From contig JAMXDE010000024.1 in NCBI GenBank assembly GCA_026770025.1, positions 310,001 through 374,000 of the forward strand: 64,000 nt of DNA, given 5' to 3'. Positions 4,996 to 53,178 of the stretch are shown in pieces. The stretch is from Craspedostauros australis (Eukaryota; Bacillariophyta; Bacillariophyceae; Mastogloiales; Achnanthaceae). A program made the position numbers and the translations under genes. How positions within the stretch are numbered: the first letter of the stretch is position 1; each line of letters begins with the position of its first letter. The notes under the pieces are model-generated. The model did no database searches. It was not told where the DNA came from and saw nothing but the letters and a program-made list of their open reading frames with translations.

Positions 4996-5000
4996 ATGTG

Positions 5001-5630
5001 TATTAGCGCACGCTAAATCTCTAACAATAGCGACACCCGTCGACCAATCAGAAATCTCCACTTTTCTCACCTTTTCCGTTCCGAACGGAAATTTTGGTCG
5101 AAAATCCGTTGTGTCAGATTTGTGTCGCATTTCGCGTCGCAAGAATCGTTTTCCCTCAATCACAGATCCAAAAATGTCGCGGAAATTGATTTCTTGCCAA
5201 GATGAGCCAATCTGCCCAATCAGGACAGACTTGGATCTTGGGTGTGACACGTGCGAATCTTGCCATGACCTTCTCAAGTGAATACGATCAATCGTGTGAT
5301 CGTACTACTAGCAACATCGTGAGAAGACGTAATTCGCAACACGGGCTATCGCGGTGTTTTGTTCATTGACTTTTGCACCTCATCTTCACGCAGTAACACG
5401 CACATTTGCCGTGTTGTCTCCGTGTTAATTTCACTTGCAATTTGCATGAGACCTGTCATGTCTCTCTCATGCTCACAGTTCCAAGAAGACAATCTTGTGA
5501 GCTCGACAGCATTCCAACTACCATACGAATAACTCAGTAAACAAACACTCTCCTCACCAACAACAACGACTTGATCACTCTACGTTCTCGGTGCGGTATC
5601 TTCAAACCCATCTACGATTACGTTCTAACA
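5001..5630 (+). repeat. LTR A, copy 1 (5' LTR of A1)
   Basis: 630 bp beginning TATTAG and ending TCTAACA. The 5' dinucleotide is TA, not the usual TG; three copies and the outer target duplication fix this boundary. The LTR contains several ATGs up to about 5470 and none after that, so transcription probably starts in its last third. Confidence 0.95.
5283..5304. promoter_or_regulatory. Palindromic site in LTR A
   Basis: TACGATCA-(6 nt)-TGATCGTA, a perfect 8-bp inverted repeat present in all three LTR A copies. It could be a factor-binding palindrome in U3 or an RNA hairpin. A CACGTG E-box-like hexamer lies about 35 bp upstream. Confidence 0.35.
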
Positions 5631-5647
5631 GATTAACAGTCGCAAGC
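5631..5647 (+). other. Primer-binding site of A1, tRNA-Asn anticodon-arm type
   Basis: GATTAACAGTCGCAAGC follows the LTR directly. Its reverse complement, GCTTGCGACTGTTAATC, has the form of a tRNA-Asn(GUU) anticodon arm: stem TGCGA and loop CTGTTAA. The same 17 nt follow the middle LTR (12188-12204) and the 5' LTR of element B (16545-16561). Confidence 0.75.
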
Positions 5648-5950
5648 TTTCACCTACTGAATTGATTGCGTGACAATCCATCCATCCTTCATCCCTCGTC
5701 CATCCACGAGCGATCCCTTCACCTTCCATCACGTGACGACGTGATTTCGGCTTTCCTTCGGCTTTCTCGCATCCGCAGAACGCCCTCCATTCGGTTCCTC
5801 TGCTGAGTTCGGGCCTTCCCACTCAGCCATCCAAGACTTCCTGCAGCACCCTCCCGCACCAGAAGACGATTCAGTCAGTGCACCCCAGCCTCAGCTATCC
5901 TTCAGCCTCCAGCATCCGCATCCACTCTCTCCATCCATCCATCGCCAATC

Positions 5951-11548: not shown

Positions 11549-11557
11549 TTTGGGGAG
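11549..11557 (+). other. Polypurine tract of A1
   Basis: TTTGGGGAG abuts the middle LTR 16 bases after the gag-pol stop codon. It is the expected start of plus-strand DNA synthesis and is repeated before the last LTR (26571-26579). Confidence 0.7.
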
Positions 11558-12187
11558 TATTAGCGCACGCTAAATCTCTAACAATAGCGACACCCGTCGA
11601 CCAATCAGAAATCTCCACTTTTCTCACCTTTTCCGTTCCGAACGGAAATTTTGGTCGAAAATCCGTTGTGTCAGATTTGTGTCGCATTTCGCGTCGCAAG
11701 AATCGTTTTCCCTCAATCACAGATCCAAAAATGTCGCGGAAATTGATTTCTTGCCAAGATGAGCCAATCTGCCCAATCAGGACAGACTTGGATCTTGGGT
11801 GTGACACGTGCGAATCTTGCCATGACCTTCTCAAGTGAATACGATCAATCGTGTGATCGTACTACTAGCAACATCGTGAGAAGACGTAATTCGCAACACG
11901 GGCTATCGCGGTGTTTTGTTCATTGACTTTTGCACCTCATCTTCACGCAGTAACACGCACATTTGCCGTGTTGTCTCCGTGTTAATTTCACTTGCAATTT
12001 GCATGAGACCTGTCATGTCTCTCTCATGCTCACAGTTCCAAGAAGACAATCTTGTGAGCTCGACAGCATTCCAACTACCATACGAATAACTCAGTAAACA
12101 AACACTCTCCTCACCAACAACAACGACTTGATCACTCTACGTTCTCGGTGCGGTATCTTCAAACCCATCTACGATTACGTTCTAACA
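11558..12187 (+). repeat. LTR A, copy 2 (shared middle LTR)
   Basis: 630 bp, apparently identical to copy 1. It serves as 3' LTR of A1 and 5' LTR of A2, preceded by the A1 polypurine tract and followed by the tRNA-Asn-type primer site (12188-12204). There is no target duplication on either side. Confidence 0.95.
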
Positions 12188-15500: not shown

Positions 15501-15831
15501 TGACAACCCCACCTTCCCCAGCCAGTCCAAGGAGCGCAGTGGACGCTGGGCCGGTCCCTGCCTTCACAAAGGCGATGATCTTACCTTCTGGGTCCTCGAC
15601 GACGAGACCCAACGACTTCTTCCTCGGTCTGCCATCCGACCTGCCGACGACTCTGCCACCCGCAATCTTCGTGCGGACTTCCCCTTCCCCATTGTTGGGG
15701 AGGACGATGGCTCTGATGCCATGAATGTGGCGAATGGGGAGCCAGACGACGACATCTCCGTCCCTCCTGACTCCGACCCCATCGTACACTCCCTCGCCGA
15801 TTCCATCCTGGCTGACCGCCGCGGCACAGAC
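12508..15831 (+). pseudogene. Element A2 gag-pol, 5' part (gag, protease, integrase), split by element B
   Basis: Same protein as A1 from Met 1 to about residue 1108, with scattered substitutions in gag (for example around residues 139-205). Protease and integrase motifs are all retained. After the insertion point the frame runs 24 bp into the LTR of element B and stops at 15855, giving a 1115-residue truncated product that lacks RT and RNase H. The other part lies at 24292-26555. The 5' promoter and leader (11558-12507) are intact, so a gag-PR-IN protein could still be made. Confidence 0.9.
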
Positions 15832-16544
15832 TATCAACATCTAGATCGAAATTAGGTACCCATCTCCCATGACTGAAACGTGATTCACTATTTTTTGATT
15901 CGACTCGATTTGAGAGTATAGTCGAGTGAGTCTTGATACACGATTGATATTCGGTCACTACGGTCATCGAACATGACGTAGGCACTGACATCATCGTATG
16001 ACGTCAGAGGATCGGTCATTGTGATCCTCGGAATCGAGATTATGTTTTAGTCATGGTACGCTGACCTGTCTAGCCATGCCGAGTGCATCATCGAGCACGT
16101 GGCAACAATACTTAGGATCCAGAACAACATCGTCAGGGATGATGCAAGCTCCCCGCCGACGTAGACGGATCAACCCTTATGTAATCAAACAGAGATCAAG
16201 GCAGACAGGATCAGACAGAGATGAAGAAAGACCCAAAGGCGAGAATAACACGAAATATCGTGTAGACCGACATGCCATCTTGGGCAATGTTTTAGAAAAG
16301 ACTGCGAGAGAAACCACGAGGTAATCGAGCAGCGCGTTAGCAACCGTGCAATAGGCACCATCTTTAGAAATAGGAGATCATCATCTCATAATCCACACTC
16401 AATCATCAATTGACACACCAATAACTTAGCAACCAAATACACCAAACATCTCCAACTTCACCTATTGGATTGATCACCCAGGCGGCGTCGTAAGTGCAGT
16501 GTTTGGTGCTCCCCTCTTGTCCTGTGTGTAATTGCTGATTATCA
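15832..16544 (+). repeat. LTR B, 5' copy
   Basis: 713 bp from TATCAAC to GATTATCA, again TA...CA ends. It holds bZIP-type sites and a GAGGATC-(9 nt)-GATCCTC inverted repeat (about 16007-16029). A small Arg-rich frame (16076-16324) lies inside; the family B solo LTR lacks its start codon, so I do not call it a gene. No ATG occurs after about 16290, which fits a transcription start near there. Confidence 0.95.
15974..16006 (+). promoter_or_regulatory. Paired bZIP/CRE-like sites in LTR B
   Basis: TGACGT at 15974-15979 and the full palindrome TGACGTCA at 15999-16006. TGACGT/ACGTCA are the core of CO2/cAMP-responsive elements described in diatom carbonic anhydrase promoters. Both sites are kept in the 3' LTR and in the diverged solo LTR (38450-38457 and 38477-38482, inverted), which supports a role in transcription of the element. 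Confidence 0.5.
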
Positions 16545-18094
16545 GATTAACAGTCGCAAGCATCTATCGTGAGAGTGAACGGACACTGAAGTGCTGCGCA
16601 TGCCCTGGTGACATCACGCTGTCCCCTTCCTTTTGATTCCGGCCCAAGAAAGGCCCAACGCGTTCGTGACGACGGACCAATTGCTCGTGTGTGCAGATTG
16701 CTACGTGCCGCCACACCCGCTTTGCCCTGCTAAAGTGCAGAAAGGCTCACCCGCTGTTGCGAATATCGCAGGCGGAGTAATTCTTCCCTAAAACAACCAA
16801 GTATCGCACCACTGCGTTACTTACGATAGCCGGTCAGCTAAAAGACAAAGGTATAAAAGCCCGTGAAGCAAGTCACACGTAAACACTTGGCCTGGTCAGC
16901 ATCGACAAAGGTGAAAGCCCGTGAAGCAAGACACACGTAAAAACTTGGAGCGCAAAGGCCCTCTGAAACCTATCGGCAATCTCACCGTGAGTTGTCGCGA
17001 CCAGGTCAGTCGTTAACACTAAGTCTAAGCCGTACTTGAGATCGGTTAACGTCCAAAAGGGACGCAGAGATAACTGCTAACCAGACTAGCGTCTGCCCTT
17101 GACTGGGGAAGAAACGTGATCGGTAGAGATACCGCGGAAGCAACCCGTAAAGCTAGCATTGTGCTGATAGCAATATCACACAAGTGAGTCTAACGACACC
17201 GGAAGGCAGGTATACGCTGGACGAAAACGCGAGTGGTGGAACCAGGTGAATCAAAGCAGTTGCTGGCACCTGGGGGGCACCGCGCTCATTAGCGTGCAAA
17301 ATCCTGTTAGTATCAGGTACATCGGGCAAGCTGCTGCCAGATCTAAAAGACGTATAGCAAGCTGATCCGTGGCACTCAAAGGAGGCACGGATTGGATCGA
17401 AGGTCCAACTGGGTGAAACCAAAGGTGCACCACATCCTGGTGGAGCACAGCTGAACAAGCGCAAGAACACAGCGTTCGGAGAGACGAAATCCGAACGGGC
17501 AGGGCCATCCAACGCGCAATCCATCCGCGACGTTTCATCGTTTCAAGACCAACAAAATAACAACAATTCCATCAACAACGCCCATTTGCGCTCAGTCCAC
17601 CTTTCTGATTGGCTGTGAATTCCTACGGTTCATACAATCACTGGCGCGTCACATCGGCTCACAACTCCTTCGCCATCCCAGTCATCCATCGGACTTCGGG
17701 TCGCGCGCCAACAAATAATCCAACCAGGAAATTCACACGGTCCTGACTGACATTTTTCATCGTCTTCGCATTCGGTCAATCGGGAAATTCGCTTGGTCCC
17801 ATTGGGTGTTTTTATCAATCAGTCATCCAAGATCACCCAACTACAGTCCACTTCAGATACCGTTGACACCTTCGCCATCACTGGCGCTTTCCATCCGGCA
17901 CCACTTCCAATCCCGACAAATTCCGATAGGCACAGAAGTTCACCGTCACATTCTGGCGAACGTCTCGACATCACAGCGGACGGCGCAGTCATTTCCAAGT
18001 GTGACCACTTTCCTGGGAGCTGCGGGAAAATACTCGTCCGATAATAATAACAAATTGGACCAACGACCACATCATCGCAACGCCCAGCTACACG
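16545..18094 (+). other. Long, almost AUG-free leader of element B
   Basis: Begins with the tRNA-Asn-type primer site (16545-16561) and runs 1550 nt to the gag-pol start. Only one ATG occurs (16600-16602), and it opens a three-codon uORF, Met-Pro-Trp-stop. A direct repeat of about 40 nt (about 16847-16889 and 16903-16946) shares the core AAGCCCGTGAAGCAAG. Several perfect stems are visible: CCAGGTG/CACCTGG (17242-17272), ATCCGTG/CACGGAT (about 17364-17393) and CGTTCGGA/TCCGAACG (17473-17497). The region probably includes packaging and translation-control RNA structure. No protein-coding frame is supported. Confidence 0.6.
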
Positions 18095-21000
18095 ATGTCC
18101 AACGCAATCCCAATCAACGACCCCATCCTGGCGCACGTCCTCAGCGTTCTCGGATATGACGACTCATCCAATGAATGGCTTATCTTGCACAACGAAGAGA
18201 TCCAAACCATCATGGATTTCGCTTCGCTCCATCGCGAAGACATGCTCGATATGGACGTCACCATCCAGGTGCCTGATCCAGAATCCGACTACGTAGCCCA
18301 ACTGTCTAAGGTAGCAATCCGGAAATTCATAAATGCCATTGGCTGGTTCAGTGTTCAACCTAATCCCACTGCAGAGACATGGCGGGAACTCAACCAAGCT
18401 TCGTACATGGAGTATGTCGCCCGGGCGTTCACACCCTCGCCCGCATCCTCAGCTGCCATGCCCGATGGAACCACCAGCGCATTCCCCTTCGAACCAACGA
18501 AGACCGAACCAACGGAGAAGACTGGACGCGACCTCGCCGCAGATTTCAACCGTAGCATCAAGCGTAACATTAGCGACTACCCAAAGTTGTCTGATGACAA
18601 GTACTTCGCTACGTTCCATCGTCGTCTGCGTGCCACCGCTGCTGCTCATGGCATCTCCAATGTTCTCGATGTTGACTACACCCCATCCGATGAACAAGCC
18701 GAACTCTTCAAAGTGCAGTCCACCTTCATGTTCAACGTGTTTGTATCCAACCTGCAGACCACGAAGAGTAGGAAGTGTGTCACTCCATACGAATCGATCT
18801 GTGATGGACAAGCCGTCTACTGCAGGCTGGTCCGCGAGTACACCACCGGTGCCACCGCCGTCAACACCATCCGACGCATCCGAGACGAGATCATCAAGTT
18901 CAAGCTGGATAAACAGTGGCGCAAGACTCGTGAACAGTTTCTGGACCTGTGGCAACACAAGGTTCACGAACTTGAGGCTTTGCGTGATGATCCAATCGAT
19001 GACGCAACGAAGAAGGAGTGGTTGACCAACGCCATCGAGGCAGACAAGGCTCTGTACCAGTCTATCTTCCAGACTGACTACCTGCAGACCGCTATCCTGG
19101 CCTACTCACCTGGCAAGTCCGCAACCACCATGGAGTTCGATACCCTCGTTGAGCTCGTCCGTTCGTACGCTGTCCAACTCGATGGCCACGACGCCAACAA
19201 GCCAAAGCCGCCGCGCCAGGTCAACAACACCGACCAGCGCAAGCAACGCGGGAAGGATAAGGACGACGGACCCAATCTCTGGAAGCCCAACAAGGACTAC
19301 AGCAAGGAGACGCGAGAACGGCTGCCGCGAGAGGAGTTCCAGAAGCTGTCGGATAAGCAACGCAGCGACTTCCTCCAAGCCCGGCGAGCCAAGTCTGGAC
19401 GTGGTAAGAAGGACAAGCCTAGGCGTTCCGCCAACACCACCAACCGCAGTGGATCCACATCCAACCAGAACAACCAACAGGGCACTCAGACCAACGACAA
19501 TGGTAGTAACAATAACGAATCTAGTTCTACCGCTGGAACAGCCATCAACCGTATGCTTTCCAATGCCATGTCTAGCTCGTCCAGGAGCCCGCCGGCTACC
19601 CTCGTCGTTGATGGTCGCACCTACACCCTGTCTCACACGAACGTATCGTACAAGTTCAACAACACGAACGTAACTGTGCAAGGCGCATTGGTGGATGGAG
19701 GTGCCAACGGCGGTCTCGTTGGCGATGACATGCTGGTGATGGAGTCCACGTCCAACCGGGCCGATGTTTCTGGAATTGGTGACGCAGAGATCAAGGATCT
19801 GGCGCTGGTCACGGCCACCGCTGTCATCCAGACCATCTCAGGACCGGTGATCGGTTGGTTCCATCAGTACGCCAACTACGGGAAAGGGCGCACCATCCAT
19901 TCTGCCAACCAACTCGCGGCGTTTGGATTGGATGTCAACGAGAGACCCAAGAACCTCCCTGGCGGCCGGCAAACCATCGTCACACCAGACGGATTCATCA
20001 TCCCGCTCACCGTGCGTCAAGGCCTCGCATACATGGATATGCACAAGCCAACTCAGGCGGAGCTAGACGATCTGCCACACGTGTTCTTCACCTCCGACCA
20101 AGAATGGGACCCATCTGTCCTGGACGGGGAGGCTGATCTGGACAACATTCCTGCAACCGAACGCGGCGACGACGACGACATCGACATCACCATCTCCAAG
20201 TGCGTTCAGTACACTCAGTCCGCTGCAGCGCTTGGGGATGGGGAGAAGGCAATCAAGGCCGGGCCACGCAACATCGTGGGTAAAGCGCCCGACTTCCATG
20301 CGCTACGGGCGTACTTCGGGTGGATTCCAGCAGACCGCGTGCGTGACACTCTTGCATGTACTACCCAATGGTATCGCATGTCTGAGCGTTATCCCATGCG
20401 TAAACACTATAAGTCTAGATTCCCCGCAGCCAATGTCAACCGACTTCACGATGTTGTTTCCATGGACACGTTGTTCTCTGACACGCCTGCTCATCATGAT
20501 GGAGTCCCCGGACACGGTGGATGTACCATGGTACAGGTGTTTGTGGGATCCAACACGCGCCTCACAGCGGCGTACCCTCTGGCAAGCGAATCCCATGTTC
20601 CCCATGTTGTGCAAGACTTCATTCGGGAGCATGGTGCCATGGAGGTGTTGATGTCCGACAACGCCACGGCGCAGATCGGGGGCAAGATGAAGGACATCCT
20701 CCGGCAGTACTGCATCGCAGACCACCAGTCCGAACCACACCACCAACACCAGAATCCTGTCGAGCGACGCATCCAGGATATCAAGCGCACCACCAACGGC
20801 ATCATGGACCGAACTGGCACCCCTGCCAGGTTCTGGCTCATCTGCACCTTGTACGTCGTGGGACTGCTCAACCACCTGTCGCAGTCCACGGCTGGCCACA
20901 TCACACCCATCCAAGCCGCCACTGGCCAACGTCCCGACGTGAGCAAGTATCTCAACTTCCACTGGTGGGAGCCGGTGTACTACAAGGTTGGGAACGCTGC

Positions 21001-23554
21001 CTTCCCTGGCACCACGCAGGAACGACGTGGGCGCTGGGCTGGACCATGCGAGCACAAGGGTGACGAACTGACGTTCTGGGTACTTGATGATGCAACGCAA
21101 CGGCTGTTGCCACGCTCGAGCATCCGACGTGTGTCTGATGACGCGCGAAACCTTCGGGCAGACTACCCCCTGCCTGATTCTGGGGAGGATGGTAACGTAG
21201 GTGACGAAGCTAGCGCAACCGAAAATCCAGAAGATTTCGACAGTGACAGCACACCTAAAGCTAGACAACCCGTTGTGCATGCACTATCTGACCTGGTAGC
21301 CACATCACATGGAGAATCAGATCCAGGTGTAGTCAAAGTCCCCAAGTTCAGTCCTGATGAGCTGCTCGGGTTGACCTTCCTCCATCAACAGGATGGTCTC
21401 AAGTGGAGAGCTCGAGTGATCCGCAAGATCAAGGACGGTGACGCAGCCAACCATGACAACATCAAGATGCTGATCGCATACGGCGACGACGACACTGAAG
21501 AGCTCATCGCATACACGGATCTAGCTGACATCATCGAACAGCAACACGAGCAGGAGATCGGCGACGGGGAGATGTGCGTTTTCAAAGCCATCACCGGTCA
21601 TGAAGGTCCATTCCACTCCAGTCACAGCAAATACAACGGCTCCTCCTACAACGTAAAGGTACAATGGGAAGATGGCAGTGTGACCATGGAACCACTGGAT
21701 GTGATTGCCAAAGACGACCCTGTATCCTGTGCAAAGTACGCTGCAGACAACAACCTCCTCAGTCTGCCTGGCTGGAAGCGATTCCGTAAACTAGCAAAGA
21801 GAAAGAAGAAACTCAATCGTCTTATCAATGCTGGTAAACGCAAAACACGTGCACAAGGTCCTATCTTCAAGTTTGGTGTTCAGGTTCCACGGAACGGAAA
21901 GGAAGCACGCCAGCTTGACGAGAAGAACGGCAACTCCAAGTGGGTAGACGCTGAGAGAAAAGAAATGGCTCAGCTCCACGAGTATGGCACGTTCAAGGAT
22001 CTTGGAAAGAACACTCGGAAACCAGACGGATACAAGCAGATCAAGCTCCTCTGGGTGTACGACGTGAAGCACGACCTTCGGCACAAGGCAAGATGCGTAG
22101 CAGGAGGGCACTTAACGGATCCATGCAAGGATATGGCATATGCAGGAGTAGTCAATCTCAGATCATTCAGGATTGCACTGCTTGCAGCAGAACTCAACAA
22201 CCTCAAACCCATGGTGGGTGATATTGGTAATGCCTATCTAGAAGCCTACACAAAGGAGAAGATCTGTTTTGTAGCTGGTCCTGAGTTCCAAGAGTTTGCT
22301 GGTCACATGATGATCATTGTGAAAGCGCTCTACGGACTACGCACGTCTGGTGCACGATTCCACGAGTCTCTGGCCGACACACTCCGCGACATGAAGTTCT
22401 TTCAGTGCAAAGCTGACCCGGATGTGTGGATGAGGGATGCTGGTAGATGCTGGGAATACATCTGTGTGTACGTAGATGATCTGATGGCCGTCATGGAAGA
22501 CCCACAGTCATTCTTCGACACGCTCATCAACAAGTACAAGTACAAGTTGAAAGGTGTAGGACCAATCAAGTATCACCTCGGCGCAGACTTCGACCGAGAC
22601 AAAGACGGAACCCTGACTATGAGCCCGCAATCTTACATCAAACGGATGCTGGCGAATTACGAACAGGTGCATGGGGAGCTTCCACGGACCTACACCAGTC
22701 CCATGGAACACAACGACGCCCCCGAGCTAGACACATCACATGAACTAAACCCTGTAGAGACCAGACAGTTTCAATCACTCATCGGCGCCCTTCAATGGTG
22801 CATCACATTGGGACGGTTTGATATTGCTGCAGCTGTGATGACTTTGTCTAGATTCAGAGCTCAACCCAGGATTGGTCACATGGACCGCGCTAAACGTGTG
22901 TATGGATACCTCCGAAAGCGTTCTGATGCTGCCATCAGGTTCAGAACGGGAATTCCAGATCACGAGCGCTTCTTCAAGGTTCCTGACCATGAATGGATGT
23001 ACTCTGTATATGGTGACGCCGGAGAGGAGACCGCAGACGACGATCCAACACCCAAGGGCAAGGCAGTTCGAATGACGACGTTTGTAGATGCCAACCTCAT
23101 GCACTGCAAAGTGACAGGCAAATCTGCAACTGGTGTTCTCCATCTGCTCAACCAGACACCCATCGAATGGTTCAGCAAACGCCAGACCACTGTCGAGACT
23201 GCAACCTATGGATCGGAATTCGTCGCGGCAAGACAGGCAACAGAGCAAGTGATTGCGATGCGCCTCACTCTTCGTGCAATGGGGATTCCACTGGACGGAC
23301 CCGCCTGGATGTTCGGAGACAACCAGAGCGTGATCACTTCCTCCACAATTCCCAACAGTGTGTTGTCCAAACGACACAATGCATTGGCGTACCACCGCGT
23401 GCGTGCCGCAGTAGCTGCGAAGATCCTGCATTTCTGCAAGATAGACGGAACGGAAAACGTAGCCGACGTCATGACCAAGTTCCTTCCATGGGCGAAGTAC
23501 TGGCCGTTAGTGAGGCCGCTTCTGTTCTGGAAAGGAGAGACTCTGGGTGGATGA
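18095..23554 (+). CDS. Element B gag-pol polyprotein, intact, 1819 aa (Ty1/copia)
   Basis: Order of domains as in A1: gag without CCHC knuckle (basic, Asn-rich stretch at about 365-470); protease with D-G-G at D534 where D-S/T-G is usual; conserved LPGGRQTI block; integrase D791, D855, E890 (34-residue spacing, no HHCC motif); two SH3/chromo-like segments (about 1085-1150 and 1180-1235, the second with VQWEDGS and DDPVSCA); RT YVDD at 1459-1462; RNase H from D1665 with ATYGSEF, GDNQSV and NVADVMTK. It is clearly homologous to A1 over its whole length but strongly diverged, so it is a separate family of the same lineage. The start at 18095 is only the second ATG of the leader. Confidence 0.95.
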   Translation: MSNAIPINDPILAHVLSVLGYDDSSNEWLILHNEEIQTIMDFASLHREDMLDMDVTIQVPDPESDYVAQLSKVAIRKFINAIGWFSVQPNPTAETWRELNQASYMEYVARAFTPSPASSAAMPDGTTSAFPFEPTKTEPTEKTGRDLAADFNRSIKRNISDYPKLSDDKYFATFHRRLRATAAAHGISNVLDVDYTPSDEQAELFKVQSTFMFNVFVSNLQTTKSRKCVTPYESICDGQAVYCRLVREYTTGATAVNTIRRIRDEIIKFKLDKQWRKTREQFLDLWQHKVHELEALRDDPIDDATKKEWLTNAIEADKALYQSIFQTDYLQTAILAYSPGKSATTMEFDTLVELVRSYAVQLDGHDANKPKPPRQVNNTDQRKQRGKDKDDGPNLWKPNKDYSKETRERLPREEFQKLSDKQRSDFLQARRAKSGRGKKDKPRRSANTTNRSGSTSNQNNQQGTQTNDNGSNNNESSSTAGTAINRMLSNAMSSSSRSPPATLVVDGRTYTLSHTNVSYKFNNTNVTVQGALVDGGANGGLVGDDMLVMESTSNRADVSGIGDAEIKDLALVTATAVIQTISGPVIGWFHQYANYGKGRTIHSANQLAAFGLDVNERPKNLPGGRQTIVTPDGFIIPLTVRQGLAYMDMHKPTQAELDDLPHVFFTSDQEWDPSVLDGEADLDNIPATERGDDDDIDITISKCVQYTQSAAALGDGEKAIKAGPRNIVGKAPDFHALRAYFGWIPADRVRDTLACTTQWYRMSERYPMRKHYKSRFPAANVNRLHDVVSMDTLFSDTPAHHDGVPGHGGCTMVQVFVGSNTRLTAAYPLASESHVPHVVQDFIREHGAMEVLMSDNATAQIGGKMKDILRQYCIADHQSEPHHQHQNPVERRIQDIKRTTNGIMDRTGTPARFWLICTLYVVGLLNHLSQSTAGHITPIQAATGQRPDVSKYLNFHWWEPVYYKVGNAAFPGTTQERRGRWAGPCEHKGDELTFWVLDDATQRLLPRSSIRRVSDDARNLRADYPLPDSGEDGNVGDEASATENPEDFDSDSTPKARQPVVHALSDLVATSHGESDPGVVKVPKFSPDELLGLTFLHQQDGLKWRARVIRKIKDGDAANHDNIKMLIAYGDDDTEELIAYTDLADIIEQQHEQEIGDGEMCVFKAITGHEGPFHSSHSKYNGSSYNVKVQWEDGSVTMEPLDVIAKDDPVSCAKYAADNNLLSLPGWKRFRKLAKRKKKLNRLINAGKRKTRAQGPIFKFGVQVPRNGKEARQLDEKNGNSKWVDAERKEMAQLHEYGTFKDLGKNTRKPDGYKQIKLLWVYDVKHDLRHKARCVAGGHLTDPCKDMAYAGVVNLRSFRIALLAAELNNLKPMVGDIGNAYLEAYTKEKICFVAGPEFQEFAGHMMIIVKALYGLRTSGARFHESLADTLRDMKFFQCKADPDVWMRDAGRCWEYICVYVDDLMAVMEDPQSFFDTLINKYKYKLKGVGPIKYHLGADFDRDKDGTLTMSPQSYIKRMLANYEQVHGELPRTYTSPMEHNDAPELDTSHELNPVETRQFQSLIGALQWCITLGRFDIAAAVMTLSRFRAQPRIGHMDRAKRVYGYLRKRSDAAIRFRTGIPDHERFFKVPDHEWMYSVYGDAGEETADDDPTPKGKAVRMTTFVDANLMHCKVTGKSATGVLHLLNQTPIEWFSKRQTTVETATYGSEFVAARQATEQVIAMRLTLRAMGIPLDGPAWMFGDNQSVITSSTIPNSVLSKRHNALAYHRVRAAVAAKILHFCKIDGTENVADVMTKFLPWAKYWPLVRPLLFWKGETLGG

Positions 23555-23578: not shown

Positions 23579-24291
23579 TATCAACATCTAGATCGAAATT
23601 AGGTACCCATCTCCCATGACTGAAACGTGATTCACTATTTTTTGATTCGACTCGATTTGAGAGTATAGTCGAGTGAGTCTTGATACACGATTGATATTCG
23701 GTCACTACGGTCATCGAACATGACGTAGGCACTGACATCATCGTATGACGTCAGAGGATCGGTCATTGTGATCCTCGGAATCGAGATTATGTTTTAGTCA
23801 TGGTACGCTGACCTGTCTAGCCATGCCGAGTGCATCATCGAGCACGTGGCAACAATACTTAGGATCCAGAACAACATCGTCAGGGATGATGCAAGCTCCC
23901 CGCCGACGTAGACGGATCAACCCTTATGTAATCAAACAGAGATCAAGGCAGACAGGATCAGACAGAGATGAAGAAAGACCCAAAGGCGAGAATAACACGA
24001 AATATCGTGTAGACCGACATGCCATCTTGGGCAATGTTTTAGAAAAGACTGCGAGAGAAACCACGAGGTAATCGAGCAGCGCGTTAGCAACCGTGCAATA
24101 GGCACCATCTTTAGAAATAGGAGATCATCATCTCATAATCCACACTCAATCATCAATTGACACACCAATAACTTAGCAACCAAATACACCAAACATCTCC
24201 AACTTCACCTATTGGATTGATCACCCAGGCGGCGTCGTAAGTGCAGTGTTTGGTGCTCCCCTCTTGTCCTGTGTGTAATTGCTGATTATCA
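23579..24291 (+). repeat. LTR B, 3' copy
   Basis: 713 bp, no difference from the 5' copy noticed by eye. Preceded by TAGGGGAG and followed by the CAGAC duplication and the resumed A2 reading frame. Confidence 0.95.
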
Positions 24292-26555
24292 CAGACCCTG
24301 AAACAGTGGGGAATGCCAAGGTCCACATCCCGAAGTTCTCTCCCGAGGATCTCGTTGGGATGACCTTCATCCACGAGAAGGATGGCCAGCAAGTCAAAGC
24401 GGAGGTGGTGCAAAAGGTCAATGACCTTGACGCAGCCAACCACCAACGTATCAAGATGCTACTCGCACTGGCCGATGGGGAGACGCATGACCTCATCTCC
24501 TACGTTGAGCTCGCCGACATCATCGAACGGCAACAGGAGCACAACGACGACCCCGACGCCAAGTGGGAGTTCGACTCCATCATCGGACACGAGGGTCCTC
24601 TCCCATCTTCCTCTCCCTCCTACAAGGGATCCAGCTTCAACGTCATCGTGAAATGGGGAGACGGCTCCACCTCCACCGAACCACTCTCCATCATGATTCA
24701 GGATGATCCTGTCTCTTGCGCTGCCTACGGCCGCCGCCACGAGCTTCTCGACGAGCCTGGCTGGAAGCGCCTCAAGCGCCTCGCCATCCGCACCCATCGT
24801 CTCGAGCGCCAGGTCCACAAATCGAAGACCTTCAACCACGCTCCCACCTTCCAGTTCGGTGTCCAAGTCCCTCGCAACCACAAAGAAGCGCTGCGACTCG
24901 ACGATAAGAACGGCAACACTCTCTGGGCCGATGCCGAGAAGAAGGAGATGGACCAACTCTTCGGGTACCACACCTTCAAGTCTCTCGGCAAAGGCGCCCC
25001 TGTCCCTTCCGGCTTCCAGAAGATCCGCCTCCAATGGGTCTATGCTGTGAAGCATGACCTCCGTCACAAGGCGCGCTGCGTCGCTGGTGGTCACCTCACC
25101 GACCCCTGCAAGGATGCATCCTACGCAGGTGTGGTCAGTCTTCGCTCTCTCCGCCTCTCCCTCCTCGCCGGCGAACTCAACGGCATTCCAACATGGGTTG
25201 GAGACATCGGCAATGCGTATCTTGAGGCCTTCACTCAAGAACGCATCTGCTTCATCGCTGGTGACGAATTCGGTGACTTCGCTGGTCATACCATGCAGAT
25301 AGTCAAGGCACTCTACGGCCTGCGCACATCGGGCGCCCGATTCCATGAGGCTCTCGCCGACACCCTTCGCGACATGGGTTTCCTCCAATGCCGCTCCGAT
25401 CCCGACGTCTGGATGCGTGACGCCAACTCCCATTGGGAGTACGTCTGCGTCTACGTCGATGACCTCACCGCGACGATGGCCGATCCCAAGGCTTTCTTCG
25501 ACATCCTCTCTTCGAAGTACGGGTACCAGCTCAAGGGAGTTGGTCCTATCAAGTACCATCTCGGTGCTGACTTCGGCCGTGATCCCGACGGCACTCTCAA
25601 GCTCTCCCCGCAATCCTACATCAAGCGGATGATGGAGAACTACGAACGCATGTTCGGCGAGCTTCCCCGCAAGATCAGCTGCCCTCTCGACAAGGCCGAC
25701 AGTCCGGAGCTCGACACCTCTTCCGAACTTAGCGAAACCGACAAACGCAAGTTCATGTCACTCATCGGCGCACTCCAGTGGTGTATCTCCCTCGGACGGT
25801 TTGACATCTCTGTCGCCGTCATGACGCTGGCACGCTTCCGCTCAGCTCCTCGCCAAGGTCATCTGGATCGCGCAAAGCGCATCTACGGATATCTTCGCAA
25901 GCATCCTGATGCTGCCATCCGCTTCCGCACCTGCGTCCCCCGCTTCGATCTTCACTACGAGGTTCCCAACCATGACTGGATCTACTCCGTCTACGGGAAG
26001 ACCTCCGAGGAGATTCCGGACGACATCCCCGAGCCGAAAGGCAAGCCAGTCCGAACCACCACGTTCGTCGACGCCAACCTTCTTCACTGCCAAGTCACTG
26101 GCAGATCTGCTACCGGTGCTCTCCATCTGGTCAACCAGACCCCCATCGAATGGTTCTCCAAGCGTCAAGGCACGGTTGAGACCGCCACCTACGGGTCCGA
26201 GTTCGTTGCTGCCCGTCAAGCTACGGAGCAGATCATCTCCCTCCGTCTTGCCCTTCGTGAAATGGGCATTCCGATCGACGGCCCCAGCTGGATGCTGGGT
26301 GACAATCAGTCCGTCATCACCTCCTCCACGGTCCCCAAGAGCATGCTCTCCAAGCGCCACAACGCACTGGCCTACCATCGCGTCCGGTCCGCTGTCGCCG
26401 CTGGCATCCTCTACTTCATCAAGATCCCCGGCACGCAGAACGTCGCCGACGTGATGACGAAGTTCCTTCCATGGGCTGTCTTCTGGCCCCTCGTGAAGCC
26501 CATCCTCTTCTGGAAAGGGCACACCGAGTCCTCTTCCCCGACCTACAAGACCTGA
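24292..26555 (+). pseudogene. Element A2 gag-pol, 3' part (SH3-like segments, RT, RNase H)
   Basis: The frame resumes at the duplicated CAGAC and runs open to the normal stop at 26555. It includes the YVDD motif of RT and the complete RNase H. It differs from A1 at clustered positions, for example near 24770-24830 and 25990-26130. It lacks its own start, so expression would need a chance upstream ATG, such as one in the last bases of LTR B. A2 as a whole is inactivated by insertion, not by point mutation. Confidence 0.9.
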
Positions 26556-26579
26556 ATGTCCGGGACACGCTTTGGGGAG

Positions 26580-27209
26580 TATTAGCGCACGCTAAATCTC
26601 TAACAATAGCGACACCCGTCGACCAATCAGAAATCTCCACTTTTCTCACCTTTTCCGTTCCGAACGGAAATTTTGGTCGAAAATCCGTTGTGTCAGATTT
26701 GTGTCGCATTTCGCGTCGCAAGAATCGTTTTCCCTCAATCACAGATCCAAAAATGTCGCGGAAATTGATTTCTTGCCAAGATGAGCCAATCTGCCCAATC
26801 AGGACAGACTTGGATCTTGGGTGTGACACGTGCGAATCTTGCCATGACCTTCTCAAGTGAATACGATCAATCGTGTGATCGTACTACTAGCAACATCGTG
26901 AGAAGACGTAATTCGCAACACGGGCTATCGCGGTGTTTTGTTCATTGACTTTTGCACCTCATCTTCACGCAGTAACACGCACATTTGCCGTGTTGTCTCC
27001 GTGTTAATTTCACTTGCAATTTGCATGAGACCTGTCATGTCTCTCTCATGCTCACAGTTCCAAGAAGACAATCTTGTGAGCTCGACAGCATTCCAACTAC
27101 CATACGAATAACTCAGTAAACAAACACTCTCCTCACCAACAACAACGACTTGATCACTCTACGTTCTCGGTGCGGTATCTTCAAACCCATCTACGATTAC
27201 GTTCTAACA
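26580..27209 (+). repeat. LTR A, copy 3 (3' end of the cluster)
   Basis: 630 bp, apparently identical to copies 1 and 2. Followed by ATGTG (27210-27214), matching the duplication at 4996-5000. Confidence 0.95.
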
Positions 27210-34635: not shown

Positions 34636-35317
34636 TGTTGGAAATCCGGGGTTAGTGTTAGTAAGACCTAATTCGTTGTTAGACCGTACTATTCAGAACT
34701 GTGAGCTCATTCTCTTCAGCTCCTTTGCCTTTCGTTTCTCACATAGCATCTCCTGCAGCAGCATCGTGTTATACTGTTGCATTCATGCATCTCATCATCA
34801 TGAATCGTCGCTTGCATACATGAGATCGCATCCGCAGGCATCCCTTGTCATACCCATCGTCGTGCATATCCGTAGGCATTCTTTCCATGCACCTTGTCGT
34901 GCATATCCTTATTCTACATTCCCTGCGGTACGATTCCACAGTCTTGCGTTTCGCTCTTGATCTCCTGACACCGAACTTTACGATTGGTGTCATGATTGGT
35001 GTCATGGATGATGCCCTTTCTGAGTTGTTCTAGTCCGTGCCTGACACGTGCCATGATCTCCAGATGGGGTGATCATCAATGTGTCGGTCATCATCTTCCT
35101 TCACAAGATTTAGATATCGTGGCCTTTTCTTGATTCATGGAGGACAGGCTTGTTTGCTTGGTAAGACTGAGGTCATTCCCGTGTGATTCGTGTCGTGGGT
35201 GGAATGGATAATATTCAATGGTGTGACGAATAATATCCAAAGGTGTGACGAATAATGTTGGGAGTTGCGGCAATCATGGGTATCTTTCCGACAGGGTCGT
35301 ACCCTCGATTCCTGACA
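34636..35317 (-). repeat. LTR C, 5' copy
   Basis: 682 bp, same sequence as the 3' copy by eye; carries the promoter of element C, reading leftward. Confidence 0.93.
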
Positions 35318-49038: not shown

Positions 49039-52000
49039 ATGGCATCTCACCGCTCTTTGAGGACCACCGGAGTACTCCCTATGGCATCAGCGAGGTCCAG
49101 TGCCTCCCCAACACCCGCTGCGGCGATGGGATCAACAAGTAACATGGCATCTCCTTCCACTTCAGCCACACCACAATGCAGCAGGACATCGCTTCGCCTT
49201 CACGACACCGTCTTGACGTCAGGAAATGACTTCTACGATGATGGATACAATGAGGTCGAGCTCGACACAGAAGTGCCAAGCTCGCTCTTTGGCAATCGCC
49301 GCAGCGGCAGTGATGATGGCAACAACGATGGCAACAACGATGGCAACGACGATGGCAGAGATGGAATGTTTGGACGTGAGGAGGAGCTGCGAACACTCCA
49401 TCACACATTCAAGCAGATGATACACAATTCCAAATCAAAAAGAAATAGGGATAGGAAAGGGACCGCCCAGAAGTCTTCCGTGAATACCACCCTTCCGTCT
49501 CAGACATCTATGGATGTGACCACCGATCGATCCTTCGTTCCAGCCGCCTTCGTTTGGGGTACCAGCGGTACGGGCAAGTCCAAGCTCGTCGACGTCTTCT
49601 GTGATCAGTTGCTCCAAACGACCAATACCCGCAAAGGCAGAGGAGTCCGTGTGCTGAAGGGCAAATTCCAGGAGCATCAGCAAGGCAATCCCTTCTCCGC
49701 CATCACCCAGGCGCTGTCCGATTGGTGCAAGCAGCTGACTCCCTCGCATTCATCACTGACGCCCATCAAGGAGGTCGGCAGTGGGGAGAGGTATGAAGAG
49801 ATGAGCGATGACGATGATGAAGATGTGGATGTGGATGTGGATATGGATGCAGATGGCCACCCAGCGAAAACAGCAGACGATCATCTCAAGACGGACAAGC
49901 AGCAGCACCACAGCTCGAGCCACTCATCCGAGCTGCAACGTCTCCGATCCATCATCAGATCAAGCAAGCTCACGATGCAACAGAAGGAAGTCCTTGTAGC
50001 ATTCGTACCGGCGCTATCCATCCTCCTCAATGACGATGACGACAACAGCGTCGTTTCCATCGCATCCTCCAATGCACGATATTCTCACCTTCCACAGGCA
50101 TCATCGACAGACACATCATGGAATCAGTTCCAATACACCTTCACTCAGCTCTTGACCCTCATCTCATCCAAGCACCACCCGGTGGTGATGGTGATGGATG
50201 ATTTGCAATGGGCGTCACAAGAGTGCATGAATCTCATGTCCACAGCCATGTATCAACCCCACTTCCTATGGATTGGCACAATCCGACAAGAGATCGATCC
50301 GCAGTGTCTGGATGAGGTGATGGAGTTGGATGCTGATCTTCCCTTCATGCGCCTCCTCGATGATATGCGGTTGCAGTGCGCGACAGCATCATCGGGACCG
50401 ATGAGGACGATGACGACACCATATACCGACATTCACCTGCAGAACTTCAGCAAAGAGGCACTACGCGACTGGGTGTCGCAGCTGTTTGATCAGGACGATG
50501 ATGTCGTGGATGAAACCACCAAGCTCCTGCACGAACAGACCGCAGGCAACATCTTCCACACCATCCACCTGCTACAGGACATGGAGCGCACCAAGGCTTT
50601 GACATACAGCCGCATCACGTTCCAGTGGGAGATCGATGCTTCCCGGCTCAGTTGCACTCCAAGCAACAACAACACCAACAACCACAACATCAGTGATGGC
50701 ATGGGCGGCAGCAGCCACGCCGCAGCAAACGGTGTGGTCCAACTCATCACATCCAGACTACGATCTCTGCCTGTTCCATTGCAGAGAGCACTCGTGCTGG
50801 CGTCGTACATCCGATCCTCGTTCGAGCTGGGCGTACTACAAGCGGTGTGGGACTACGAAGCACAGCACAACTCCACCGGCGGTGACGTCCTTGCCACTCC
50901 TGGAGGCAAAGTCAACGAGGCGGACGCTGGCAAGTCGCTTGCAGAGTGGTTGGAACAAGCTGTTCTGGAGGGCCTCCTCGCAAACTCCATCGGCGCTGCA
51001 AGCTATCGCTTCGCACACGACCGCATCCAACAGGCAACGCGTGATCTCGTGCCGTTCGGAGAGGCGCGCATGAAGCTTCGTCTGCGGATCGGGCAGTGTC
51101 TGTGGGACTTCTGCACAAACACCACCAGCAGCAGTGGTGGCGGTGACTCGCCCAACACAGTCACTGATCGAGGAAGCGACAGCGGTATCTTCTTCATCGC
51201 AGCCGACCATCTCAACTGCGCCCCAACCAAGGATCATCTGACATCGACTCGGCGCAATCTGCAAGTCGGCGAGCATGCACTTCAGATCGCCGCTTTGGCG
51301 CCTGCTGCGACATACCTCCAGCTTGCGAACACTGCACTACGCAAGGTGAAAGGTAACCTGTGGCAAGACTACTACGATCTGACGATTCGATTGATGCGTG
51401 CTCGATGTGACGTCGAGCTCTCTCTCAGCCGATTCGACTTGGGATATTCGTTGGGAAACGCGGTGCTTGAGCATGCACGTTCTGCTCAGGACAAGCTCCC
51501 TACGTACATTGCAATTGCCAGTGCTCTCGGCAGGCAAGATGACCATGCGAAAGGGTTACAGTTGGCCCAAGAGGGTGCCCAGATCTGTGGCGAGTATCCC
51601 AAGCGATGGTTTGCGTTCCATGGCATATCGCAGCTTCTTTCTGTCAGAGCCTACTTGAAGAGGACAACAGTGAAGCAGTTCTTCGAACAAAATCCGATCA
51701 CCGACAACCCACAAACATTGCTCTCAATGCACCTATTGAAGGAGCTTGGCATACGAGCGTATTCATGTCAAGACATTATGGCATGGATGGTGGCAACCAT
51801 GCGAACGATGCAGATGACGAGGCGAGATGGCATCTGCGAGTATTCTGCTGGCGCCTTGATTTCCTTTGCCATGATCCAAGCAGGCTTGGGCGAGTTTGCG
51901 GACGCACGCAAGTCCGCCGAACTTGCAAAGGAGATGACACTTAGGGTGGGCCGTGGGACGAGGACAGAGGGATGGATATATTACACCGTCGCCATGTATG

Positions 52001-53178
52001 TGGATTCGTTCTTCAAGCCATGGAGTGAAGTCTCCCAGGACTTTCAATATGCTTACACGTCGGCCATGGCAGCTGGCGATGTCGAGCTCAGCGTGCTAAT
52101 CCTGAATGCGAACGTAATGTTCTCGTTCTTCGATGGGCGCCCCCTCCCCTTCGTCGTACCGGCCGCAAGGTCTCTCTTCGAGCACATGGAGATATACAAG
52201 GTCGATGTATTTCGGGGTACACGCGATGAATTGTTCTTGTTATGCAACTGTATGCAAAACACGATCGAAGTGGAATGGGAGACACTCATGGATGTCAACA
52301 AATATGAACACACGAACCCATTCGAACGAACCTCCGCTTATTGGGGTCGCCTCTACATCGCGGTGTACTTCGGCAAGTTCGAATACGCGGAGAAGATGGA
52401 TCATCTGCTCACGACGAACGGCCTGGACGACCAAAGCTTTCCTTTTGTGACATCAGTCCCTTTCCTCTGTGGGTTGATGGCTTCTCATCGATACCGACAG
52501 ACAAAGAAGAAGAAGTACCTCAAGATGCTCCGGCAACGCAAGCGGGAGCTGAAGAACATGTGCGACCAGAAAGGAATCAGTGTGCACTATCTGTACTTGA
52601 TTCTGCGCGCTGAATGGAAGGCCATCAAGGTTGGAGCCACCAGCTCTGCCCTCGTGGACACCTGCTACGACAATGCCATCATGCATGCCAGAGCCGGAAA
52701 CCATCTTGACTCAGCAGGGCTCGCGAGTGAGCTGGCGGGCAAGCAGCTGCTGAGGAGAAGCGGCGGCAAGGACCCTCGCATCCGTGGCTACTTCACCCAG
52801 GCGTTAGGCTTCTACGAGAGATGGGGCTCCGTCCCCAAGGCCAAGAGTTTCCGTGAAGAGTACGGTGACTACGTTGATGAAGATCGTGTGCGCAAGATGA
52901 AGATGGACAACAGCCTCGTCGGGCAAATCAAATCCATCGATCTTCGCGATCAGTCGCAGGAGCATCACAGTCATACGGGCCACACCCAAGATCTGATGTC
53001 ACATGGAACACCAGGCAATGGACTTGCCCAGTCTGTTTCCGACATGATTTCTAAAGGGCAGGCAAGCAAAGATCCAACAGCGAGAACGCCGAGCGATGAC
53101 AACGCGAGAAGCAACGAATCGGCGGAGAGTGCTGTCGATGATGACAACATGTCTCAGCTGGCAGATTCATCGCAGTAG
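49039..53178 (+). CDS. PknK-like AAA_16 ATPase with TPR-type C-terminal region, 1379 aa
   Basis: Resembles the predicted ATPase module found next to kinases and cyclases in signalling proteins (STAND/COG3899 type). FGREEEL near 111 is the usual entry motif. Walker A is GTSGTGKS at 174-181, and Walker B is VVMVMDDLQWAS with D387. A winged-helix-like region ends with YRFAHDRIQQA at 656, a family hallmark. About 730-1260 is helical and TPR-like. The C-terminus is Ser/Asp/Asn-rich and probably disordered. Low-complexity inserts occur: Asp-rich at about 255-275 and Asn-rich at about 540-560. No kinase or cyclase catalytic domain is present. The ORF has no visible intron. The first in-frame ATG was taken as start. 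Likely cytosolic nucleotide-dependent switch; partner unknown. Confidence 0.85.
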   Translation: MASHRSLRTTGVLPMASARSSASPTPAAAMGSTSNMASPSTSATPQCSRTSLRLHDTVLTSGNDFYDDGYNEVELDTEVPSSLFGNRRSGSDDGNNDGNNDGNDDGRDGMFGREEELRTLHHTFKQMIHNSKSKRNRDRKGTAQKSSVNTTLPSQTSMDVTTDRSFVPAAFVWGTSGTGKSKLVDVFCDQLLQTTNTRKGRGVRVLKGKFQEHQQGNPFSAITQALSDWCKQLTPSHSSLTPIKEVGSGERYEEMSDDDDEDVDVDVDMDADGHPAKTADDHLKTDKQQHHSSSHSSELQRLRSIIRSSKLTMQQKEVLVAFVPALSILLNDDDDNSVVSIASSNARYSHLPQASSTDTSWNQFQYTFTQLLTLISSKHHPVVMVMDDLQWASQECMNLMSTAMYQPHFLWIGTIRQEIDPQCLDEVMELDADLPFMRLLDDMRLQCATASSGPMRTMTTPYTDIHLQNFSKEALRDWVSQLFDQDDDVVDETTKLLHEQTAGNIFHTIHLLQDMERTKALTYSRITFQWEIDASRLSCTPSNNNTNNHNISDGMGGSSHAAANGVVQLITSRLRSLPVPLQRALVLASYIRSSFELGVLQAVWDYEAQHNSTGGDVLATPGGKVNEADAGKSLAEWLEQAVLEGLLANSIGAASYRFAHDRIQQATRDLVPFGEARMKLRLRIGQCLWDFCTNTTSSSGGGDSPNTVTDRGSDSGIFFIAADHLNCAPTKDHLTSTRRNLQVGEHALQIAALAPAATYLQLANTALRKVKGNLWQDYYDLTIRLMRARCDVELSLSRFDLGYSLGNAVLEHARSAQDKLPTYIAIASALGRQDDHAKGLQLAQEGAQICGEYPKRWFAFHGISQLLSVRAYLKRTTVKQFFEQNPITDNPQTLLSMHLLKELGIRAYSCQDIMAWMVATMRTMQMTRRDGICEYSAGALISFAMIQAGLGEFADARKSAELAKEMTLRVGRGTRTEGWIYYTVAMYVDSFFKPWSEVSQDFQYAYTSAMAAGDVELSVLILNANVMFSFFDGRPLPFVVPAARSLFEHMEIYKVDVFRGTRDELFLLCNCMQNTIEVEWETLMDVNKYEHTNPFERTSAYWGRLYIAVYFGKFEYAEKMDHLLTTNGLDDQSFPFVTSVPFLCGLMASHRYRQTKKKKYLKMLRQRKRELKNMCDQKGISVHYLYLILRAEWKAIKVGATSSALVDTCYDNAIMHARAGNHLDSAGLASELAGKQLLRRSGGKDPRIRGYFTQALGFYERWGSVPKAKSFREEYGDYVDEDRVRKMKMDNSLVGQIKSIDLRDQSQEHHSHTGHTQDLMSHGTPGNGLAQSVSDMISKGQASKDPTARTPSDDNARSNESAESAVDDDNMSQLADSSQ

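Follow-up and report, generated by a model that had tools for sequence, protein, structure and literature searches.

The locus raises the question of how ribosomes reach a start codon that lies behind about 1.5 kb of untranslated RNA. The window, the whole stretch of 64,000 nucleotides that was analysed, is from Craspedostauros australis (contig JAMXDE010000024.1, positions 310,001 to 374,000, forward strand), and its segment 16545–18094 forms the untranslated leader of an LTR retrotransposon of the copia type (RVT_2), referred to here as B. The initial annotation had described a leader with a single AUG, which opened a three-codon upstream frame (uORF), and had attributed the lack of others to selection for cap-dependent scanning. 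The features of B, and the leader of the related element A, are as follows.

5631–5950, + strand: leader of element A with the same primer site, ATG-free (0 ATG vs 2.7 expected, P 0.03)
15827–15831: left copy of the target-site duplication CAGAC (5 bp)
15832–16544, + strand: 5' LTR of B, 713 bp, zero mismatches against the 3' LTR
16383–16544, + strand: putative transcribed end of the LTR with the probable RNA 5' end, from the ATG pattern among copies
16545–16558, + strand: primer-binding site, 14-nt complement of tRNA-Asn(GUU) positions 27–40, anticodon arm
16575–16589, + strand: alternative uORF site, MNES/MNEN/MNEF-stop, in 33 of 65 copies; GTG in the window copy
16600–16611, + strand: uORF Met-Pro-Trp-stop, pyrimidine at -3; ATG here in 31 of 65 copies
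16603–18094, + strand: ATG-free leader
16665–17564, + strand: conserved, partly structured non-coding core of ~900 nt, found in B copies only
16856–16890, + strand: 35-nt direct repeat within the core, copy 1
16914–16948, + strand: 35-nt direct repeat, copy 2, 94% identical
17565–18094, + strand: faster-changing gag-proximal leader, ATG-free (pairwise difference 0.05–0.17; 0 ATG vs 6.0 expected)
18095–23554, + strand: gag-pol, single frame of 1819 aa, start AUG with A at -3
23579–24291, + strand: 3' LTR of B, identical to the 5' LTR
24292–24296: right copy of the target-site duplication CAGAC

The B LTR boundaries were set from tandem copy A1, where the site is empty; CAGAC is present on both sides of B and once at the matching empty site. 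B is nested inside the second tandem copy of element A, which occurs as two tandem copies with a common middle LTR (LTRs at 5000–5630, 11557–12187, and 26579–27209). When gag-pol of B was searched against Pfam in three pieces, the RVT_2 reverse transcriptase domain (PF07727, 7.6e-24) was found in the last third, and the first two pieces, in which integrase and gag were sought, gave no match. The CoDi elements of diatoms have a single gag-pol frame, as does B. CoDi-like diatom elements belong to Ty1/copia (PMC2806351; clade placement according to PMC5445492), and CoDi and B are alike, by description only, in the diatom host and the copia-type RVT_2 reverse transcriptase; the main text of PMC2806351 does not contain the terms 'leader', 'untranslated', or 'primer binding' and offers no leader comparison. 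The tRNA genes for comparison with the primer site were predicted with ARAGORN. The primer site together with the last five LTR bases was unchanged in 63 of 65 B copies, a count in which a tolerated change just ahead of the site was scored as a mismatch, and a primer site for the anticodon arm of tRNA-Asn was common to B, A, and the sampled related families. Minus-strand DNA of B is probably primed from this internal part of tRNA-Asn. The primer site of the fungal copia element FunCo1 is likewise complementary to an internal tRNA segment, there of tRNA-Lys (PMC5445492), whereas B appears to use the anticodon arm of tRNA-Asn.

Several other features were recorded during the analysis. The window contains two tandem arrays (963–1651 and 2512–2791), one spaced by multiples of 3 nt and the other built of a 20-nt unit, an inverted repeat of 442 nt (3010–3451/4233–4674, 84% complementary, 781 nt between the arms), and a 1379-aa frame at 49039–53178 that includes an AAA_16 ATPase domain. 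In element D, the LTR (34636–35317, minus strand) has 21 ATGs between 34919 and 34710 on the coding strand and is followed by a leader of 79 nt; this richness in ATG is the opposite of the LTR tail of B. The silicon transporter family PF03842 gave 88 matches on many contigs, about 32 of them nearly full-profile. Such a set of silicon transporters is unusually large for a diatom, and the presence of many of these genes by itself marks the host as most likely a diatom.

An exact count agreed with the initial annotation for the window copy. Consecutive ATGs on the + strand were at ...16272, 16287, 16600, and 18095, with the one at 16600 alone ahead of the gag-pol start, and this ATG opened the reported Met-Pro-Trp-stop (ATG CCC TGG TGA). 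The annotation had put the expectation for such a sequence at about 20 ATGs and had seen none in 16603–18094; in 5000 dinucleotide shuffles, 16603–18094 had an expectation of 19.6 and a minimum of 7 against an observed count of 0, and 16545–18094 contained 1 against 21.4 expected (lowest shuffle 10). The annotation had also proposed shuffles and a comparison of strands, and these placed ATG far below the shuffles while the reverse-strand control, CAT, was at expectation (30 vs 28.8 in 16545–18094; 28 vs 27.6 in 16603–18094). The gag-pol of B showed a slight excess of ATG (120 vs 106.9 expected, 500 shuffles). In 16603–18094, ATG was the most depleted of the 64 triplets, with CTC next (0.42 of expectation); CTG, ATC, and GTG were in excess in the leader, an arithmetic result of the missing ATG that carried no separate signal. 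The same segment was the longest ATG-free run of the window on either strand (next longest, 812 on the + strand and 437 on the - strand). The statement that the LTR lacked ATG after about 16290 also held, with 0 vs 5.0 expected in the LTR tail 16290–16544 (P 0.0006). Along the leader, 17113–17412, 17413–17712, and 17713–18094 each contained 0 ATG with P <= 0.0085, and 16612–16811 and 16812–17112 said little because few ATGs were expected there anyway (just 2.5 and 1.8; P 0.03 and 0.10). The leader was non-coding, with 16–20 stops per frame and a longest open stretch of 126 codons; the copies also differed by indels of 8, 16, and 32 nt, which likewise counted against coding.

To see whether the pattern of one copy held for the family, copies were sought by leader DNA and by gag protein in the 74.8-Mb genome of 90 contigs. 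The numbers of copies are lower bounds, since they derive from the best 40 of 72 matches by leader DNA and the best 131 of 263 by gag protein, and at least one further B copy (C48) lay outside the set. The working set had 69 B copies including the window copy, and 65 leaders (58 distinct) were aligned after exclusion of L054, L075, L076, and L081, in which the leader was shortened or absent; the rows of this alignment are related copies and not independent observations. In L075 and L076, a B gag without its start codon was joined to sequence resembling the end of the LTR of an element C, and these two are probably nested insertions. The tree, structure counts, and diversity profile were made without L082, and a second diversity profile without L010, L031, and L038.

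The aligned leaders were 1541–1635 nt long, and ATG counts of one, two, three, and four were found in 27, 30, 4, and 4 rows, respectively. The description of the leader as having one AUG was therefore correct for 27 of the 65 copies, the window copy among them, and did not extend to the other 38, which had at least one further AUG. Among the rows with a single ATG, 26 (including the window copy) had the short uORF, and L060 had a different AUG. Four ATG sites were recurrent, namely 16575 (33 rows), 16600 (31 rows), 17138 (21 rows), and 17221 (19 rows), the last of which opened 23 codons in most rows; eleven further sites were each found in one row only. AUGs are thus not strictly excluded from the leader, as those at 17138 and 17221 are both common. 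Even so, the 58 distinct leaders averaged 0.78 ATGs downstream of the uORF, with no more than 3 in any of them, where 18.5 were expected.

The frequencies of ATGs gained among the copies indicated that new ones are being removed. In 16612–18091, with the window copy as the reference, 9 of 11 ATG gains were found in a single copy, compared with 6 of 23 CAT gains (Fisher P 0.0035) and with 44% of all 1080 triplet gains; the result with L011 as the reference was similar (9/11 vs 6/22, P 0.0078). With either reference, ATG had the highest single-copy share among triplets with at least 8 gains. The signal was clear in 17565–18091 (ATG 4/4 vs CAT 1/10, P 0.005) and was not significant in 16612–17564, which is mostly core (5/7 vs 5/13, P 0.35), nor in the LTR tail (2/5 vs 1/8). 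Because the test was not significant in 16612–17564, the absence of ATG there could partly reflect conservation. ATGs off the four recurrent sites were present in 3 of 49 rows with a gag-pol frame of at least 1780 aa vs 5 of 15 rows with a shorter one (P 0.014); L020, which had no frame length, was omitted from this comparison, and L035, whose frame was cut by the contig end, was scored as broken. L059, L066, and L079 had full-length frames despite extra AUGs. A simpler test by site across the leader as a whole counted 12 ATG gains where 24.0 were expected; it was given no weight because TGT, AGA, GAC, and TAG fell lower still.

The contexts of the remaining AUGs differed from that of gag. In every context examined (32 of 33, 31 of 31, 21 of 21, and 19 of 19 rows, respectively), the recurrent upstream AUGs at 16575, 16600, 17138, and 17221 had a pyrimidine at -3, whereas the gag AUG had A at -3 in the 62 B rows examined and in 19/19 relatives. 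A purine at -3 was present in 5 of the 11 single-row leader ATGs and in 2 of 6 leader ATGs of relatives. In the LTR, ATGs with A at -3 recurred at 16316 (8 rows), 16334 (6), 16369 (3), 16372 (3), and 16380 (2), and past 16380 ATGs occurred in single rows alone, at 16484, 16526, and 16531. ATGs with A at -3 thus recur as far as 16380 and are almost absent beyond it; this is most simply read as an RNA start after ~16382, and the 5' UTR would then measure roughly 1.55–1.7 kb.

We extended the comparison to related families whose gag proteins were 30–43% identical to that of B. From about 59 non-B gag matches, 19 were picked before their leaders were seen; L097, in which a B-like LTR occupies the leader position, was excluded. 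The resulting nineteen leaders, including that of element A, fell into 7 sequence clusters and were 202–500 nt long, so that the leader of B has an extra 1.05–1.35 kb. They contained 6 ATGs vs 109 expected (lowest of 1000 shuffles, 84), and 14 of the 19 had none, counts slightly biased toward ATG-free leaders because the first in-frame ATG of each open frame was used as its start; CAT was present 274 times vs 243 expected. The initial annotation had noted that the leader of A is ATG-free; this was correct, although with 0 vs 2.7 expected it is weak evidence for A alone. It had also named relatives with many leader ATGs as a finding that would speak against its reading, and no relative or copy in the sample had more than four. 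AUG avoidance is thus a property of the clade as sampled, which B spreads over a leader ~three to eight times longer. Taken together, the copies and the families show an AUG avoidance in the leader that is clade-wide, strand-specific, and current.

These results are good evidence that gag-pol is reached by scanning of the whole ~1.55–1.7-kb leader from the RNA 5' end, which we regard as quite likely. In such a model, the RNA would start in the last part of the 5' LTR and run through the tRNA-Asn primer site to the gag-pol AUG, and ribosomes loaded at the 5' end would scan the full leader, so that a new AUG would divert them and be selected away. The AUGs that persist in many copies would be harmless, having a pyrimidine at -3 and short frames that are closed long before gag. 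The uORF would be bypassed by leaky scanning, or by reinitiation with almost 1.5 kb of AUG-poor RNA as room, and the conserved core would have to remain transparent to scanning. The claim of selection for cap-dependent scanning was thus supported by copies and families as to scanning, and cap dependence would be its default form.

If ribosomes shunted, if an intron were removed, or if a promoter lay downstream, part of the leader would be freed from selection against AUGs. No such freed part is seen in the segments with enough expected ATGs to tell, which favours scanning of the whole leader. In a shunt of the plant pararetrovirus style, ribosomes would take off at the uORF, jump over a structured leader, and land near gag. 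Pararetroviruses have a long leader whose 5' part includes a short uORF that terminates ahead of a stable stem (PMC5902531). B resembles them in that, in 64 of 65 rows, a uORF of 2–4 codons lies close to the start of the very long leader, and structured stretches are present at 16724–16905, 17266–17505, and 17988–18091. However, column-shuffle scores of whole stretches showed no exceptional structure around or after the uORF of B (z +1.33 for 16545–16723, 56 of 60 shuffles as low; z -1.31 for 16605–16783, 7 of 60), and the part that would be bypassed is AUG-poor. A skipped region could gain AUGs freely, yet the window copy has no ATG after the uORF and new ATGs look purged in 17565–18091. The sole candidate for a long-range pairing, 16575–16593 with 17849–17867, was rejected since other copies do not keep it. 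We therefore regard a shunt as very improbable. A second promoter within the leader could yield the translated mRNA and confine the full leader to packaged RNA. There is a precedent in BARE of barley, a copia element that, like B, has one frame and an untranslated leader, and that is translated from a separate downstream promoter, with separate RNA pools for translation and packaging (PMC3735527). The window copy has TATAAAAG at 16852–16859, but this TATA form is not conserved, being found in just 24 of 65 copies, and depletion reaches upstream of it (0 ATG vs 5.7 expected in 16383–16599, and 0 vs 2.8, P 0.028, in 16603–16852), which makes such a promoter improbable.

Diatom genes can undergo splicing, and an intron could sit in so long a leader. 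That splicing takes the bulk of the leader out of the gag-pol mRNA, an outcome that the initial annotation had said would refute its reading, nevertheless seems barely credible. An intron would be free of selection on AUGs, yet every tested segment after the uORF lacked ATG. Among the copies, a single gap of at least 60 nt relative to the window leader was found in 0 of 65 rows, and similarity of the four copies with a shortened or absent leader (L054, L075, L076, and L081) began at 17243, 18097, 18097, and 17567, with no common point. It was equally hard to credit that ATGs are lacking through conservation of a structured RNA whose ancestor was ATG-free by chance. The core is conserved and the frequency test was not significant in 16612–17564, as such an explanation would have it, but the faster-changing gag-proximal 530 nt was also ATG-free, with new ATGs confined to single copies (4/4, compared with 1/10 for CAT), dissimilar leaders of related families were equally depleted, and the reverse strand showed no depletion.

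Within the favoured reading, in which the whole leader is scanned, the uORF was considered separately. A uORF of 2–4 codons was present at one of two sites in 64 of 65 copies, and both sites were used together in none. The peptides were MNES, MNEN, and MNEF at 16575 and MPW, MPS, MSW, and MP at 16600; the length stayed at 2–4 codons while the peptide varied, and that so short a frame persists in this way suggests a role independent of the peptide. The surrounding 16560–16612 was one of the leader's most variable blocks: among its 24 distinct sequences, 22 had exactly one ATG, one had two, and one had none. On a tree of the remaining leader, the uORF class changed 15 times, compared with an average of 21.6 changes and never fewer than 16 when the labels were shuffled 200 times, which means that the 5' block was often exchanged against the rest of the leader; the pattern of exactly one uORF is weak evidence alone for that reason. 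The two forms appear to be linked haplotypes, which would explain much of this pattern. L060 used neither site, yet had a full-length gag-pol frame, and it looks like a recombinant of both haplotypes.

The annotation had proposed the uORF as a possible control and an alignment to look for its conservation. In B copies the uORF was indeed kept at its two sites with its length, but L060 lacked it, as did 18 of the 19 relatives, L087 alone having a similar frame (MLNA). One version of such a control is a selected switch in which reinitiation tunes gag-pol to initiation-factor activity under stress, as in GCN4/ATF4, where a short permissive uORF far upstream is paired with a second, inhibitory one; in B, a second upstream AUG (17138 or 17221) was present in 36 of 65 rows, and the window copy had neither. 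The single ATG in 22 of 24 sequences of a highly variable block and the constancy of length under change of peptide would agree with a switch. Against it stand the full-length frame of L060, the near-absence of the uORF from relatives, the linkage of the two alleles as haplotypes with L060 resembling their recombinant, and the weak context, which equally fits an AUG that is merely tolerated. We consider a switch possible though doubtful; it would be compatible with scanning through the leader and is not its alternative. Rous sarcoma virus also has short frames upstream of gag, and these are described as attenuating gag-pol initiation (PMC2657110).

The finding that is new here is the ~900-nt core, which is less variable than the LTR or early gag. 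Its pairwise difference was 0.01–0.07 per 75-nt window, mostly 1–5%, compared with 0.05–0.18 in the LTR, the first ~365 nt of gag, and the remaining leader. Within it, 16830–17540 had 96–100% identity in the best 40 of 71 candidates, all of them B copies. Rfam, which also bears on a possible IRES, had no family of any kind for the leader at E <= 5 nor for the window at gathering score, and a search of IMG/VR for related loci found none. Folding compared with column-shuffled alignments gave z -3.6 for 16724–16905 and z -3.8 for 17326–17505, and in 4 of 26 windows 0 of 60 shuffles were as low. Single-sequence folds of the window copy had z below -2 in 4 of 40 windows (lowest, -4.1 at 17590–17739), and covariation was sparse, with 0–3 pairs per window changed on both sides. 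The core is thus partly structured; column shuffles are the chief support, and single-sequence folding and covariation speak against a strong claim. The core is constrained at least as strongly as the beginning of gag, which points to a role for the RNA itself, and our guess is that the core may serve the RNA stage of the life cycle, i.e. packaging, dimer formation, or export. Leaders of the HIV-1 type are likewise long structured 5' UTRs that serve translation and packaging, and how ribosomes pass retroviral leaders is debated (PMC2657110). HIV-1 5' UTRs are about 350–775 nt (PMC2657110), whereas that of B is 1.55 kb or more, and a packaging role in B is conjectural. A speculative and rather unlikely extension is that B captured a structured module that combines an RNA function with a scanning track gated by the uORF, so that gag-pol output would follow the initiation state of the cell (e.g. 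under nutrient stress).

Upstream AUGs are generally depleted in eukaryotic 5' UTRs, and uORF starts are in a weaker context than starts of coding sequences (PMC7889888). The same force would act on B, but there depletion is near-total over 1.5 kb of a mobile element, and the purging is visible. The rule is ordinary; what is unusual is the combination of 1.5-kb length, near-absence of AUG, and a conserved core restricted to one family. Among the open-access matches listed, no title or opening of an abstract dealt with a diatom or copia leader that lacks AUG. Where AUGs are tolerated and where they are purged also gives a rough prediction of the RNA 5' end from sequence. The B family, with dozens of copies, an AUG-poor leader of 1.5 kb, and a conserved core, is a natural experiment on how far the 40S subunit can scan in a natural mRNA and on how a retroelement balances a long functional leader against translation.
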